In this document: positions 1-19,149 of the stretch, in pieces
How positions within the stretch are numbered: position 1 is the first letter of the stretch
How the letters are laid out: the number at the start of each line of letters is the position of its first letter
Source: a virus
Strand: one strand, 5' to 3'
Virus record (IMG/VR): IMGVR_UViG_3300045902_000078
Coordinates: 1-25,481 of that record
Length of the DNA: 25,481 nucleotides
Position numbers and translations under genes: made by a program
The notes under the pieces: model-generated
What the model was told of the DNA's origin: nothing
Seen by the model: the letters and a program-made list of their open reading frames with translations, nothing else
The model's database searches: none

Positions 1-240
1 TGCAACAGAACGCGGTTCGAGTCAAGTAGCTTGATGAGACATGGTTAATGGTTATAGTTAATGATGTGCTACTGATGAGGGCAGTGTTAACCTTATCTCT
101 TAAGGCTAATAGACTGTTAACGTTCAGCTTTTGTTAACCATATCGGGTAACCTTAAGGAACATGGTTAATTTTGCGTTGACATTAGGGAAAAGTTAACCC
201 TAATTCGTAAGGTTAACGGTGATACCCTGTTAACCATGGC
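1..240. promoter_or_regulatory. GTTAAC/GGTTAA operator-like repeat cluster
   Basis: This AT-rich, gene-free stretch contains six exact copies of the palindrome GTTAAC (86, 116, 133, 193, 212, 229) and several one-base variants (43-49, 146-152, 164-170) on both strands. The shared longer form is RTTAACCATA. The same motif recurs at 17111-17120 and 18069-18079 beside late promoters. Repeats of this density upstream of a gene operon suggest binding sites for a phage regulator or replication initiator. The binding protein is not identified. No coding sequence is supported here. Confidence 0.6.
177..206 (+). promoter_or_regulatory. sigma70-like promoter with an operator motif in its spacer
   Basis: A perfect -35 box TTGACA (177-182) is followed after 18 bp by TAATTC (201-206). 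The repeat GTTAACCC (193-200) lies inside the spacer, the same arrangement as in the capsid promoter at 18062. It would read toward the early genes. The -10 box is imperfect, so the call is moderate. Confidence 0.35.
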
Positions 241-5838: not shown

Positions 5839-5966
5839 GCCATTCTGTTGAAGAAGCCCCGCTGGAGCTTGAGGTGGAAGAACCGAAATCCACCTTGGTG
5901 GAAGTGGACAGCCTGCGGGAGAAGCGGGTATTGGATACGATGCGACAATGGAGTATCAGGACTTGA
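5835..5966 (+). CDS. hypothetical acidic small protein (43 aa)
   Basis: This short frame starts at ATG 5835, overlapping the previous stop, and ends at 5966. The first 30 residues are Glu-rich (VEEAPLELEVEEPK) and the end is basic. It overlaps the start of the methyltransferase gene by 19 bases. The arrangement suggests it couples translation into the methyltransferase. It may also be a small partner or leader peptide. No family is recognised. Confidence 0.55.
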   Translation: MSHSVEEAPLELEVEEPKSTLVEVDSLREKRVLDTMRQWSIRT

Positions 5967-7135
5967 ACTGGCAATCTCCAAGACAGGCCCTCGATACGAC
6001 CCAGACCGGGCAGTTGAATCTGTTTGGTGGGCAACGTGAAAATACAGAATGCGATGAGTTTCTGACCGAACAGCTTATAACCTATATCGGAAACAAACGA
6101 CGCTTGCTGCCTCTTATCGAGATGGCGTTATCTAAGGCGCGAGATATCATTGGTTCGGACACGATTTCCTTTGCCGACGTTTTTGCTGGCACTGGCGTTG
6201 TGTCGCGCATGGCGCGTCGTTGGTCTCACGCGCTTTATGTGAATGACTTTGAGAAATATAGTGCATATTCAAATGCGGTATACCACACAAATCGATCAGA
6301 TGTTGATCTTGATGAGGTTGATGAGGCTAGGAAGGAAGTAAACTGGATCGCATCTCAGCGACCATATGCCGGGTTCATTACAGATTTGTATTCACCTGTT
6401 GATGAGAAAAACATAAGGAAATCTGACCGAGTTTTTTACACTCGCCGGAATGCAATGTTCATTGACACTGCCCGGCAGGAAATTGAGCGGCTTCCCAAAT
6501 CCTTGCGCCCCTTTCTCTTGGCACCGCTGATTCAGCGCGCGTCGGTACACGTCAATACTTCCGGTGTGTTCAAGGGGTTCTACAAGAACAGGAACGGGGT
6601 TGGTCAGTTTGGTGGAGAGATGAAGAACGCGCTTCAGCGGATTTGTGCCCCCATTGAGATACCTCTTCCGGTTCTGTCCAATTTTGCAGTCGATGCAACA
6701 GTCTCACAGATGGAGGCAGGTTCCTTCGTGGAAACCTTGCCACCAATAGATGTCGCATACTTTGACCCGCCTTATAACCAGCACCCATATGGGTCAAATT
6801 ACTTTATGCTGAATCTCATCCTCGACTATGTCCCGCCAAAGAACATCAGTCGTGTTTCTGGTATACCGAGTGGCTGGAATAGGTCAGACTATAATGTTCG
6901 CGGAAAATCGGCAGTAGCTCTTTCGTCAGTTATGAAAAAATGTCCCGCGCGGATTTTGATGGTGTCTTATAACTCGGAGGGATTTATTTCATTCGATGAA
7001 ATGATGGACTTGTTAGAAGACTTGGGGGCGGTAACTGTTCTTGATCAGGAATACAATACCTTTAGAGGTTGTCGAAACCTTGCTGGACGTTCTACCCACG
7101 TAACGGAGTTTCTTTTTGTTGTAAAGATAGCGTGA
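5948..7135 (+). CDS. D12-class N6-adenine DNA methyltransferase
   Basis: The 395-residue product has the order of alpha/D12-type adenine methyltransferases. Motif X is YIGNKRR (46-52), the SAM-binding motif I is FADVFAGTG (75-83), and the catalytic motif IV is DPPY (273-276). The long segment between motifs I and IV is the expected place for target recognition. It methylates adenine in a specific DNA sequence, which would protect phage DNA from restriction. No restriction endonuclease partner is beside it. The gene is visibly richer in A and T than its neighbours, suggesting separate acquisition. The start is the ATG at 5948, although no good ribosome binding site is seen. Confidence 0.85.
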   Translation: MEYQDLNWQSPRQALDTTQTGQLNLFGGQRENTECDEFLTEQLITYIGNKRRLLPLIEMALSKARDIIGSDTISFADVFAGTGVVSRMARRWSHALYVNDFEKYSAYSNAVYHTNRSDVDLDEVDEARKEVNWIASQRPYAGFITDLYSPVDEKNIRKSDRVFYTRRNAMFIDTARQEIERLPKSLRPFLLAPLIQRASVHVNTSGVFKGFYKNRNGVGQFGGEMKNALQRICAPIEIPLPVLSNFAVDATVSQMEAGSFVETLPPIDVAYFDPPYNQHPYGSNYFMLNLILDYVPPKNISRVSGIPSGWNRSDYNVRGKSAVALSSVMKKCPARILMVSYNSEGFISFDEMMDLLEDLGAVTVLDQEYNTFRGCRNLAGRSTHVTEFLFVVKIA

Positions 7136-10057: not shown

Positions 10058-10086
10058 TTGACATGCGGTGAACGGGCGGGTTAATC
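10058..10086 (+). promoter_or_regulatory. promoter upstream of the packaging genes
   Basis: TTGACA (10058-10063) and TTAATC (10081-10086) are 17 bp apart, and the GGTTAAT motif of the left-end cluster overlaps the -10 box (10079-10085). It lies in the 194-base gap before the terminase gene. Confidence 0.45.
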
Positions 10087-10101
10087 TCCGCGCGTTGTCA
10101 T

Positions 10102-10141
10102 CGACCAACTCCTTCGGGGTTGTCGTCATAGGGTGAGCCGA
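10102..10141 (+). other. UUCG hairpin followed by a TAGGGTGAGCCGA element
   Basis: CAAC-T-CC and GGGTTG pair around a TTCG tetraloop (10106-10122), extended by CGA/TCG with a bulge. It is followed by TAGGGTGAGCCGA (10129-10141). The identical 13-mer recurs at 18142-18154 in the major capsid leader, so it is probably a shared leader or regulatory element. Confidence 0.45.
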
Positions 10142-10184
10142 ACGAACGACTCCCCGACTTTTTTCCTTCCCGGAGAAGTCAGGG

Positions 10185-10240: not shown

Positions 10241-12808
10241 ATGACAGCCGACTCTGCCCCCTCTCATCTGGAAGAGCGCGAAGTATGCGTCTATGATGAC
10301 GGCAGCCGCGCCGTGTGGAGACTCATGCCCACCCCCGATGGCACGGGCATATGGAAGCCGTATCATCTCGATAAGGACGGGGCTGTTATCCGGGAGCCCG
10401 CATGGATGCCGCTTCCCGGCTCGCAGAACGATTTCCTTCGCTCCCCGGCATTCGAGACCCTGTATGAGGGGACTCGGGGGCCGGGAAAGAGAATAAAATC
10501 CTATGAATATGTTCTCACAGACAGCGGGTGGAAGCAGGTGAAGGATGTGGTGATGTCCGACAGGCTGGTAGCCCCCGACGGAACCTATACGGACATTCTC
10601 GGTATCTATCCGCATGAACCTCAACCCATCTACAGGGTCGAGTTCGAGGATGAATGCCATCTTGACGTAGGCCCGGAGCATCTGTGGTCTGTGCGCAGCG
10701 CCAAGAACTCATCGAGAGACGGCTGGCTGGTGCGCAGTACCGAAGAGCTTATCGAACTATTGAAACAGAGCGAGGGCAAGACCCGTTCCGCGAAGAATAG
10801 CTGGTACATTCCCACCATGTCGGCTGGCGCGCCGGGCAAGCCTTGGGATGGTCCCGACCCGTATGTCATTGGCCTTATGTTAGGTGACGGGACCATGGGG
10901 TCGGATAGAGTAACTTTGTACTCGGAAGACGAGTATATTCAAAAATACATGATGGAAGTCCATGGTTGGAGTTTTTTCAAGTATGAGGGTTTGTGTGGGC
11001 GTTTGGTGTGCCCTGAAGGGTTATCCAGACCATGGAGGAATATATTAGAAAAAAAGAAAGCTCTACACAAGGCCGTTCCCGAGGCTCTGCTTGACGCAGA
11101 CCCCGATACGCGGCTTGCGGTACTTCAGGGGTTGATGGACTCCGATGGCTCCGTCGATACCACCGGCCAGTGCCGGTTCGTTTCGCTATCCCATGATCTG
11201 GCGCATGATGTCCAGTACATCGTCCGTTCCCTTGGCGGCAAGGCTACCTGTTATTGGGAGGACAGACCATCTCTCAAGGGAGGGGTAGACGGCAGGTGGC
11301 GCGTCAATATTCAGCACTGTAACAAGTTCAATCCGTTTCGGCTTCCCCGAAAGGCCGGGCGTGTGAAGAAGATGAAAGGAGTCGACCGGCGTATCGAGAG
11401 CATCGTTCGGGTCGAGGACGCCCCCGCAGTCTGCTTTGAAGTGAGCCATCCGTCCCGTCTCTTTGTCTGCCAGCAGTTCATCGTGACTCATAACACCATG
11501 ACGCTGCTCATGGACTTTGCGTCCGATGTCGGCAAGGGATACGGCAAGGCTTGGCGCGGTATCCTGTTCCGCCGCACATATGGCGATCTCGATGACGTGG
11601 TGCGCAAGGTCGAAGAGGTCTATCCCAAGGTATTTCCCGGCTTCGCGTTCAAGAAGTCCAAGGCCGACTACGCTTGCGTGTGGCCGGACGGCGAGCAGCT
11701 ATTGCTACGGCACATGCTGGATGAGAACGACTACGAAGGATACCACGGGCACGAGTATCCGTGGATTGGATTTGAGGAGTTGACCCAGTGGGAGAATGAC
11801 AAGGCGTACAAGCTCATGTTCTCGTGCTGCCGCCCGACCGCTCCGGGTATCCCCTGCCGTGTTCGCGCCACGACCAATCCGTATGGGGTTGGGCATTCAT
11901 GGGTGAAGAAGCGTTTCAAGCTGCCGCACTTCCGTGGCAAGGTCATCAGGAACCCCGGTGAAGTTCCGCGCGTGGCTATCCACGGGAACCTGTCTGAGAA
12001 CTTCCTGTTGCTCCACACCGCGCCGAATTATCCTCAGCAGGTCATGCAGGCCGCAACCAACCCTGCACAGGCTGCCGCGTGGATACAGGGCTCATGGGAT
12101 GTGAACGCGGGCGGCATGGTCGATGACCTGTGGGATGCCACATACCATGTGCTGCCGGACTTTCCCGCCAAGGTCATTCCGAGGTCGTGGCGCATCACCC
12201 GCGCCTACGACCACGGCCAGTCTCACCCCTTCGCTGTGGGCTGGTGGCTGGAGTCTTCTGGTGAGCCTTTGAAGTGGAATGGTCAGGAGTACGGTCGCAT
12301 CCGTGGCGACCTCATCCTGTTCAACGAGTGGTATGGCACGACCGGCGAAGAGCAGACCGGCGTCCGCATGGAAGCTGGCAACATCGCTCAGGGTATCCTC
12401 GACCGTGAGGACGATATGGGTCTCAGGGGCCGGGTGTTGCCGGGTCCGGCTGATACGGAAATATGGTCCAAGGACTCTCGTGGAACCGGGCGCGCGCCGA
12501 TTGACGACATGATGGACAAGGGTGTCTACTGGGAACGTGCCGACAAGACACCGGGGTCGCGCAAGCGTGGCTGGCAGATGCTGCGGTCGCGTCTGACATA
12601 CGCTAGGCCGGAGAAAGACGGTACTCGTGAGAGGCCGGGTATGTTCGTCTGCGAGCGATGCAAATACTGGCTGACATATGTCCCGCCCATGCCGCGCGAC
12701 AGGGCAGACCCGGACGATGTGCCCGACAAGTATGAGGACCATCTGGCGGACATGACGCGCTACCGCCTGAACTGGGTTATTCCCGGAATGTGGCGGCGCA
12801 ATTTCTGA
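10241..12808 (+). CDS. terL: terminase large subunit precursor, intein-containing (TerL)
   Basis: The 855-residue precursor is a DNA-packaging ATPase and nuclease split by an intein at residues 84-418. After splicing a 520-residue TerL remains, a normal family size. The Walker A motif is rebuilt as GTRGPGK (77-83) plus T419. Walker B is WIGFEE (508-513). The nuclease part starts with RAYDHG (D657), followed by a PGPADTEIW segment and an EDHLADMTRY end, all typical of TerL nucleases. It cuts and drives DNA into the prohead with the portal. Start ATG 10241 lies nine bases after AAGGAG (10226-10231); the ATG at 10234 gives only a short frame. Unspliced protein would lack ATPase activity. Confidence 0.9.
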   Translation: MTADSAPSHLEEREVCVYDDGSRAVWRLMPTPDGTGIWKPYHLDKDGAVIREPAWMPLPGSQNDFLRSPAFETLYEGTRGPGKRIKSYEYVLTDSGWKQVKDVVMSDRLVAPDGTYTDILGIYPHEPQPIYRVEFEDECHLDVGPEHLWSVRSAKNSSRDGWLVRSTEELIELLKQSEGKTRSAKNSWYIPTMSAGAPGKPWDGPDPYVIGLMLGDGTMGSDRVTLYSEDEYIQKYMMEVHGWSFFKYEGLCGRLVCPEGLSRPWRNILEKKKALHKAVPEALLDADPDTRLAVLQGLMDSDGSVDTTGQCRFVSLSHDLAHDVQYIVRSLGGKATCYWEDRPSLKGGVDGRWRVNIQHCNKFNPFRLPRKAGRVKKMKGVDRRIESIVRVEDAPAVCFEVSHPSRLFVCQQFIVTHNTMTLLMDFASDVGKGYGKAWRGILFRRTYGDLDDVVRKVEEVYPKVFPGFAFKKSKADYACVWPDGEQLLLRHMLDENDYEGYHGHEYPWIGFEELTQWENDKAYKLMFSCCRPTAPGIPCRVRATTNPYGVGHSWVKKRFKLPHFRGKVIRNPGEVPRVAIHGNLSENFLLLHTAPNYPQQVMQAATNPAQAAAWIQGSWDVNAGGMVDDLWDATYHVLPDFPAKVIPRSWRITRAYDHGQSHPFAVGWWLESSGEPLKWNGQEYGRIRGDLILFNEWYGTTGEEQTGVRMEAGNIAQGILDREDDMGLRGRVLPGPADTEIWSKDSRGTGRAPIDDMMDKGVYWERADKTPGSRKRGWQMLRSRLTYARPEKDGTRERPGMFVCERCKYWLTYVPPMPRDRADPDDVPDKYEDHLADMTRYRLNWVIPGMWRRNF
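10490..11494 (+). mobile_element. class 3 (WCT) intein with LAGLIDADG endonuclease in TerL
   Basis: Residues 84-418 of TerL interrupt Walker A between K83 and T419. The end is VTHN before Thr, as in inteins. The first residue is Arg, not Cys or Ser, so standard class 1 splicing is impossible. Instead it has the Trp-Cys-Thr triad of class 3: HLW in block B (H147, W149), a block F Cys (C398) and T416 of THN. The centre has LAGLIDADG motifs IGLMLGDGT (210-218) and LQGLMDSDG (295-303). DNA around 10900-11070 is AT-richer than the flanks. The exact N-junction is inferred from rebuilding Walker A. Confidence 0.85.
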
Positions 12809-17080: not shown

Positions 17081-17120
17081 TTGACAACAATTGGTCATCT
17101 CCTTTAAGGGTATGGTTAAT
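17081..17120 (+). promoter_or_regulatory. promoter-like site with inverted operator motif
   Basis: TTGACA (17081-17086) lies five bases after the membrane cassette. TATGGTTAAT (17111-17120) is the reverse complement of the RTTAACCATA motif found in the left-end cluster and at 18069. No good -10 box is present at the usual 16-18 bp spacing, so an activator may be needed. It precedes the scaffold gene by about 30 bases. Confidence 0.4.
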
Positions 17121-17146: not shown

Positions 17147-17983
17147 ATGGATTGGGACTTTATTGCGAACGCTTCCGTCGATGTGATCGACATCGTGCCG
17201 GAGAACATCCGGGGATATTACGAAGAGGACAAGGCGAATGGCAAGTTCGTCCTCAAGGCCGACATCAAGCCTCTGGCCGAAGCCTACACTGGTGCCAGCA
17301 AGAAGCTCAAGACGGTCGGGCTTCAGCGTCAGGAAGACAACAGGAAGGATGCCACGCGCCGCGCCATCCTCGATCAAGTCACTTCCACACTGACCGAAGT
17401 CGGTTGGGAAATCGGCGACGATATTACCAAAATCCCCGAGATCGTGAAGACCAAGGTCACCGAACTGCTCGATCAGGTCAAGGGCGGCAAGGAGGTTCGC
17501 ACCAATCTCGAAGCCATCAAGAAGGACTTCGACAAGCGCGTCCTCGAAGTGACCACGAAGAAGGACAGCGAATTGGCCAACATGCGCAAATCGCTGGAGA
17601 CCTACATGATCGACTCGGCTGCGGCTGCCGCTCTGGCGGAAGCGGGCACCGTCGATGGCGGTCTCGACCTCATCATGCCTCTGGTGCGCAAGTTCTCCAA
17701 GGTCGTGGCTGCCGAAGACGGCACCTACACGGTCAAGGTTGTCGATGCCGAGAACAACGTGCGTCTCGACAACAGCGGTAACGAAATGTCCATCAAGTCA
17801 CTGGTCAACGAGATGAAGACCAAGTATCCGATGGCTTTCAAGTCTTCGACGCCCGCTGGCGGCGGAAAGCCTCCGGGGTCCGGCAAGCTGCCGACCGGCC
17901 AGCAGGCTCCCGGCCGGAGCACCGAAAAGTCCTCGGTGGCCAAGATCAGCGCCGGTCTCGCCAATCTCGGTAGCCGTCGCTAG
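17147..17983 (+). CDS. head scaffolding protein (putative)
   Basis: AAAAGGAG precedes ATG 17147 by a normal gap. The 278-residue product is helical and highly charged through the middle (about 60-160), consistent with a coiled-coil scaffold. It ends in a Gly/Pro/Ser-rich flexible stretch and a basic tail. Scaffolds guide capsid protein assembly and are then lost. It lies immediately before the major capsid gene, the usual position. It could also be another capsid assembly factor. The TAG stop is followed by a terminator, so the message probably ends there. Confidence 0.6.
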   Translation: MDWDFIANASVDVIDIVPENIRGYYEEDKANGKFVLKADIKPLAEAYTGASKKLKTVGLQRQEDNRKDATRRAILDQVTSTLTEVGWEIGDDITKIPEIVKTKVTELLDQVKGGKEVRTNLEAIKKDFDKRVLEVTTKKDSELANMRKSLETYMIDSAAAAALAEAGTVDGGLDLIMPLVRKFSKVVAAEDGTYTVKVVDAENNVRLDNSGNEMSIKSLVNEMKTKYPMAFKSSTPAGGGKPPGSGKLPTGQQAPGRSTEKSSVAKISAGLANLGSRR

Positions 17984-18061: not shown

Positions 18062-18091
18062 TTGACACGTTAACCATATTTGGCATATTTT
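18062..18091 (+). promoter_or_regulatory. major capsid promoter with operator-like motif
   Basis: TTGACA (18062-18067), an 18-bp spacer and TATTTT (18086-18091) form a sigma70-like promoter just after the terminator. The spacer holds GTTAACCATAT (18069-18079), identical over 11 bp to 133-143 in the left-end cluster. A protein bound there would sit over the promoter core. Confidence 0.6.
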
Positions 18092-18108: not shown

Positions 18109-18154
18109 GTTGTGCATCGCGCAACGAGGGGACGGACCTCTTAGGGTGAGCCGA
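18109..18154 (+). other. capsid leader hairpin and TAGGGTGAGCCGA element
   Basis: GTTGTGC and GCGCAAC pair around an ATC loop (18109-18125). Downstream, TAGGGTGAGCCGA (18142-18154) is identical to 10129-10141 in the terminase leader. The leader is long, about 140 bases from the promoter to the capsid start, which leaves room for mRNA stabilisation or regulation. Confidence 0.45.
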
Positions 18155-18228
18155 GGAAGGTCAATGAAAATCGGGTATCCGAGCCTCATGACCGTAACGA
18201 ACCTGAACCCTAGAAGGAGTATCAACCA

Positions 18229-19149
18229 ATGGCTTCCGTAACCCTCGCTGAAAGCGCTAAGCTGGCTCAGGACGACCTTGTTGCTGGCCTGATCGAGAAC
18301 GTCATCACCGTCAACCGCTTCTATGAGATGCTTCCGTTCGAGGGCATCGAGGGTAACGCCCTTGCCTACAACCGCGAAAACGTCCTCGGTGACGTTGATG
18401 TGGAGGGTGTCGGCGACACCATCGCATCGAAGGGGGCTGCGACCTTCACGCAGATCACTTCCAGTCTGACCACGATTGTCGGTGATGCCGAGGTCAACGG
18501 CCTCATTCAGGCGACCCGCTCGGGTGACGGCAACGACCAGACGGCCATCCAGATCGCCTCCAAGGCGAAGTCGGCGGGCCGCAAGTATCAGAACATGCTC
18601 ATCAACGGGACCGGCACTGCCGATCAGTTCACTGGTTTGATTGCGCTGACCGCATCCAATCAGAAGGTCAACACGGGCAACAACGGCGGCGCGCTGTCGT
18701 TCGCGTTCCTCGATGAACTCATCGATCTTGTCACCGACAAGGACGGTCAGGTTGACTACATCACCCTGCATGCCCGCCCGCTTCGCTCGTACATGGCGCT
18801 TCTGCGCGGACTTGGCGGCGCAAACATCTCGGAGGTCGTGCAGCTTCCGTCCGGTGCCCAAGTGCCCGCCTATCGTGGTATCCCGATGTTCCGCAACGAC
18901 TGGATCCCCATCGATCAGGTGAAGGGCAGCGGCTCTAATCAGACTACCATCTTCGCAGGCACCCTCGATGACGGCAGCCGTTCGCATGGTATCGCCGGTC
19001 TGACCGCCGCAAACGCCGCTGGCCTCAGCGTCGTGGACGTGGGCGAGAGCGAGACCAAGGACGAGCACATCTACCGCGTCAGGTGGTACTGCGGTCTGGC
19101 CCTGTTCTCCGAGAAGGGTCTGTCGGCTGCCGACGGCATCACCAACTAA
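18229..19149 (+). CDS. major capsid protein (HK97-fold)
   Basis: The 306-residue product has the size, position and pattern of an HK97-fold capsid protein that lacks a long protease-cleaved arm. It begins with a helical N-arm. The middle holds the P-domain-like segment (AIQIASKAKSAGRKYQNMLI, about 105-124), and the end has the A-domain pattern RGIPMFRNDWIPI (about 223-235). AGAAGGAG precedes ATG 18229. It has its own promoter and terminator, as expected of the most abundant virion protein. No protease gene is near, so maturation may be simple. Confidence 0.8.
   Translation: MASVTLAESAKLAQDDLVAGLIENVITVNRFYEMLPFEGIEGNALAYNRENVLGDVDVEGVGDTIASKGAATFTQITSSLTTIVGDAEVNGLIQATRSGDGNDQTAIQIASKAKSAGRKYQNMLINGTGTADQFTGLIALTASNQKVNTGNNGGALSFAFLDELIDLVTDKDGQVDYITLHARPLRSYMALLRGLGGANISEVVQLPSGAQVPAYRGIPMFRNDWIPIDQVKGSGSNQTTIFAGTLDDGSRSHGIAGLTAANAAGLSVVDVGESETKDEHIYRVRWYCGLALFSEKGLSAADGITN

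Follow-up and report, generated by a model that had tools for sequence, protein, structure and literature searches.

In a YuA-related siphophage, sites of the form GTTAAC/TTAACCAT are very probably binding sites of the host regulator CtrA, as predicted from their sequence. CtrA is a response regulator and the master regulator of the alphaproteobacterial cell cycle. The DNA analysed is a virus record of 25,481 bp (the window), carrying terminase, portal, scaffold, capsid and tail genes. The sequence-only reading had proposed a single regulator for early and late promoters; one regulator with sites in both is well supported by the intergenic confinement of the motif and the conservation of its capsid and scaffold sites, although the terminase site is weak and not conserved. 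The evidence points to host CtrA rather than a phage-specific factor in this role.

The array and the distribution of the motif

The window is a genome fragment, with the left gene block outside it. Contigs G001 and G002 match it at 99.9% over 9.2 kb and 99.8% over 13 kb, respectively, and both prolong it rightward; G001 is, judged by its sequence, the same phage. Among the related contigs, which include G007, G017 is a 93-kb relative whose ends overlap by 157 bp and which is probably circular, and G022 (63% GC) is a third branch.

A TTAA-core array (GGTTAAY / GTTAACC, no strand assigned) occupies positions 43-234 and is proposed to be a CtrA-binding array at the early control region. Eleven TTAA cores are found in the first 270 bases (at 45, 58, 87, 100, 117, 134, 153, 166, 194, 213 and 230), so that the array, running from 45 to 233, extends beyond the six GTTAAC palindromes in 240 bp first described. 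Those six are all present, at 86-234. GTTAAC occurs seven times in the 25,481 bp (86, 116, 133, 193, 212, 229 and 18069), against 2.37 +/- 1.58 in whole-window shuffles, and six times in positions 1-240, where 0.16 are expected. None of 5,000 dinucleotide shuffles of positions 1-240 reaches six (maximum 3), which rules out chance clustering. TTAA pairs are over-represented at 13 bp and at 17 bp (3 against 0.44 expected, P about 0.006, in each case). The clustering of CtrA-type sites is strong, with 16 of 22 GTTAA matches within the first 500 bp. The rest of the window is depleted of GTTAA (6 observed, 17.3 expected); specific genome-wide avoidance is nevertheless unsupported, as CTTAA is just as rare. 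Similar arrays are seen at L098 325-705, L099 2421-2900 and L139 5900-6400 and in a gap of Brevundimonas phage vB_BsubS-Delta (Delta). G017 has two, about 8 kb apart (L099 2421-2900 and L100 8918-9780), the second consisting of inverted GGTTAA-N6-TTAACC-type pairs.

Within the array, a possible early promoter on the plus strand (177-206) has TTGACA at 177-182, GTTAAC downstream at 193-198 and a weak -10. On the 3' side of the array lies an A-rich block of imperfect repeats of about 30 bp (330-480, no strand assigned), possibly an unwinding region or a leader; a comparable A-rich repeat block also follows the array in L098, at about 760-1000. The first small gene (562-963) returned no relatives when these were searched for, and the first predicted gene contains a perfect, in-frame tandem duplication of about 21 bases at 650-692 (ATCACGACCCCTTGGGAGTAT twice). 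The contig's first bases were considered as a tRNA or attachment site, but the tRNA search was empty and this was dropped. An Rfam search of the window gave no RNA matches.

Genes were called by a simple ORF picker based on codon usage. Against these calls, all copies of RTTAACCAT fall between genes: 6/6 in the window, 10/10 in the relative G007 and 6/6 in G017. When the arrays are left out, 13 of 15 copies in five contigs are still intergenic, against about 3.2 expected (P about 1e-6). These counts rule out that the motif is as common inside genes as between them. In G007, single sites stand ahead of a series of rightward genes, including sites 75 bp before the scaffold start and 163 bp before the capsid start.

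Sites in the promoters of structural genes

The capsid promoter (18062-18091, plus strand) reads TTGACA-N18-TATTTT and precedes the major capsid protein gene (18229-19149, plus strand; PHROG 212, E 2e-74). A promoter scan gives it 10/12 matches with a perfect -35 and places GTTAACCATA within the spacer. The longer form, GTTAACCATAT, occupies 18069-18079 in this spacer and recurs exactly, as had been observed, at 133-143, with no further copies in the window. The claim that the motif lies in the spacer of two promoters holds for 18062 and only in part for 177, where TTGACA is perfect, since no acceptable -10 is found at 16-18 bp and the scan does not return this promoter. The scaffold promoter (17081-17120, plus strand; TTGACA at 17081-17086) carries the reverse copy TATGGTTAAT at 17111-17120, in its -10/start region, and precedes the head scaffolding protein gene (17147-17983, plus strand; PHROG 206, E 1.3e-23). 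This copy and GGTTAAT at 10079, both reported in the sequence-only reading, were confirmed. The latter (10079-10085), a weak site, overlies the -10 of an upstream promoter of the terminase gene (10058-10087, plus strand; TTGACA at 10058-10063). Close relatives have no site at this promoter, L086 being the only one with a site in an adjacent promoter.

The capsid and scaffold sites are conserved. In the window's capsid clade, where L004 is the row of the window's own phage, each of the seven rows has, 157-163 bp upstream of the capsid start, a TTAACCA core inside a promoter of the form TTGACA-N17/18-TAT. Wherever a close relative has sequence covering the scaffold promoter, that promoter contains the site. 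The window, L083, L084 and L007 have it, as ATGGTTAAY, at the -10 or immediately past it; L008 and L009 have it within the spacer in the opposite orientation. A site that is retained while its place and strand shift resembles a regulator's operator. On the capsid tree, presence of the motif requires about seven changes, against 15.6 with shuffled labels, indicating that presence is clustered, yet was gained or lost more than once.

Other features were seen around these genes. The terminase large subunit (10241-12808, plus strand, 855 aa) is interrupted by an insert of about 335 aa (residues 84-417), placed precisely within the Walker A motif (GPGK ... HN|TM) and containing a LAGLIDADG domain; from its sequence the insert is classed as an intein-like element. 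The terminase of L083 is uninterrupted (521 aa). In YuA-like phages the capsid 5' leaders (window 18130-18200) have in common a GGGTGAgCC/GGGTGATCC element flanked by complementary arms; a second stem, which shows compensatory changes, comes after it. A similar GGGTGAGCC precedes the terminase gene (window 10120-10180). The capsid element is possibly a structured leader RNA, unmatched by Rfam; consensus folding resolved only a short stem and a two-pair loop element.

Probable identity of the regulator and of the host

CtrA recognizes a half-site TTAACCAT with the core TTAA and a full site TTAA-N7-TTAAC (PMC3692519). Repressing half-sites overlap the -10 and activating ones lie near the -35 (PMC6180460). 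Clustered CtrA sites were described in several alphaproteobacterial phages by Mascolo et al. 2022 (PMC9437464), where EMSA and reporters are reported to show binding of CtrA to phage promoters, with repression in Delta and activation in phiCbK and Cp1R7A-A1. Delta is itself YuA-related, and its TTAA-rich 1.3-kb gap is described as CtrA-bound and CtrA-repressed (PMC9437464). In the fetched Delta sequence we counted 30 TTAA in this 1,312-bp gap, in agreement with PMC9437464. They form 6 pairs at 11 bp, 7 at 13 bp and 7 at 17 bp, each against about 0.66 expected, which is an enrichment of about tenfold over chance at each distance.

The window's phage is like Delta in having a YuA-related capsid and terminase, a dense intergenic TTAA array ahead of a rightward module with structural genes, spacings of 13 and 17 bp between paired TTAA, and intergenic sites, with one upstream of the capsid gene (GTTAACCAT in Delta). 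In Delta, Fanboy and BabaJaga, this GTTAACCAT is 151 bp before the capsid gene. Of the motifs by which CtrA-regulated (LPEG) phages are recognized, the half-site TTAACCAT is present in the window, whereas the canonical full site TTAA-N7-TTAA (11-bp step) has no exact copy there, unlike in Delta. The full site is found once in G007, five times in G017 and six times in the G022 array; the G022 capsid promoter carries two GGTTAAC 13 bp apart. The window's 13- and 17-bp pairs could represent another CtrA arrangement or another protein. The window also differs from Delta and the LPEG cases in that its sites lie inside the core promoters of identified scaffold and capsid genes; the phage CtrA targets described in PMC9437464 are genes of unknown function. 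CtrA binding is predicted here, whereas for Delta it is reported as demonstrated (PMC9437464). The gap region of Sphingomonas phage vB_StuS_MMDA13 is comparable in that it separates divergent gene blocks and carries GTTAACCAT-based direct repeats, but this phage belongs to another lineage and its sites are reported upstream of a single gene of unknown function (PMC9437464).

The host is probably an alphaproteobacterium bearing CtrA, because the tail-tip protein of G001 matches mostly alphaproteobacterial phages (116 phage records, including Caulobacter 38, Rhodobacter 24, Brevundimonas 8 and Roseobacter 7). Its C-terminus is Rcc01698-like, that is, like a gene transfer agent tail protein. Capsid and portal were uninformative as host indicators, as were genome contigs with a related capsid, which fell in scattered MAG bins of unrelated phyla, and the G017 DNA polymerase was not discriminating. 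Among seven YuA-like phages of non-alphaproteobacterial hosts, RTTAACCAT is absent from six (YuA, a Pseudomonas phage; Bordetella CN2; Variovorax VBv52; Sphaerotilus SN1; Xanthomonas Elanor; Janthinobacterium Donnerlittchen) and occurs once in Stenotrophomonas Sonora. It is also absent from Rhodobacter phage RcSimone-Hastad, so an alphaproteobacterial host alone does not imply the array. No phage-encoded CtrA/OmpR-type DNA-binding protein was found in the seven contigs searched. Delta encodes an OmpR-type DNA-binding domain at 77612-78130 (L133, DELTA_100; PF00486, E 3.5e-8), and the searched relatives of the window have none.

A cluster with dispersed promoter sites would also fit a phage-encoded immunity-type repressor that binds an operator array in the early region and single operators in late promoters, host CtrA being uninvolved. 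The phiC31 CIRs and mycobacteriophage L5 stoperators are operators read by phage-encoded repressors, and they share with the motif a short site dispersed over intergenic regions and promoters and clustered at the early control region. The window's spacing is 13/17 bp rather than the 11 bp of CtrA, Delta is reported to cluster with homoimmunity-conferring phages (PMC9437464), and a repressor gene could sit outside this fragment, in the left block. However, repressor operators usually diverge fast, and here the same 9-mer is shared by lineages with a capsid protein identity of only about 60%. It is found in Delta too, where CtrA binding is reported (PMC9437464). Unlike for phiC31 and L5, Pfam and PHROGs returned no regulator among the window proteins, which do not cover the left part of the genome, or the tested small proteins of G007 and the partly scanned G017. 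We consider such a repressor unlikely.

Less probable still is that the array is mainly a replication origin, with iterons for a phage initiator beside an A-rich unwinding region and the promoter copies secondary. The repeats do adjoin the A-rich block, and the GC skew of G017 has its minimum near the first array and its maximum opposite. The skew is confounded, however, as gene strands switch at those same points and such switches alone produce it. Delta has no such skew, DnaA boxes are absent near the arrays, and the conserved single sites inside the capsid and scaffold promoters would be left unexplained. It is very improbable that the pattern of GTTAAC reflects modification and not transcription control, with the motif serving as a target of methylation or restriction. 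The phage does encode a D12-class N6-adenine DNA methyltransferase (5948-7135; PF02086, E 6e-16), close relatives of which are rare in viral contigs, and GTTAA is scarce outside the array. Against this, CTTAA shares that scarcity, restriction would select against the array, and what is conserved is the asymmetric TTAACC[AT]T at promoter positions, often lacking the full GTTAAC palindrome.

Proposed deferment of the lytic programme

The reading that we think likely is that the motif is the recognition sequence of host CtrA and that CtrA represses early and late promoters, so that lysis is deferred ("lytic deferment"). Phosphorylated CtrA would coat the array of the early control region and would also occupy the single late-promoter sites, in the spacer, the -10 or the start region, blocking RNA polymerase. 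The block would last while CtrA is high after entry, for example in non-replicating swarmer cells. Once CtrA is cleared, as host replication begins, the early operon would open together with the promoters of the scaffold and capsid genes. We infer CtrA binding, repression over activation and this timing from the DNA; repression appears more likely because the scaffold site is in the -10/start region and the capsid site in the spacer of a promoter whose -35 is perfect.

Phage use of host CtrA has so far been proposed from few isolates. New here are sites that lie in promoters of late genes of known identity, that are conserved throughout an uncultured clade and that persist while shifting between spacer and start region; no discussion of Delta's own capsid-upstream site was found in the available part of PMC9437464. 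More tentatively, this uncultured YuA-like clade may combine CtrA half-sites in its capsid and scaffold core promoters with a large array that is perhaps also an origin, so that the host cycle gates assembly and perhaps replication, and the array may titrate CtrA and thereby push the host towards S phase. The deferment idea becomes a simple promoter test, and the sites can serve to propose alphaproteobacterial hosts when only phage DNA is at hand. Their arrangement suggests a phage whose lytic genes are timed to the cell cycle of its host.
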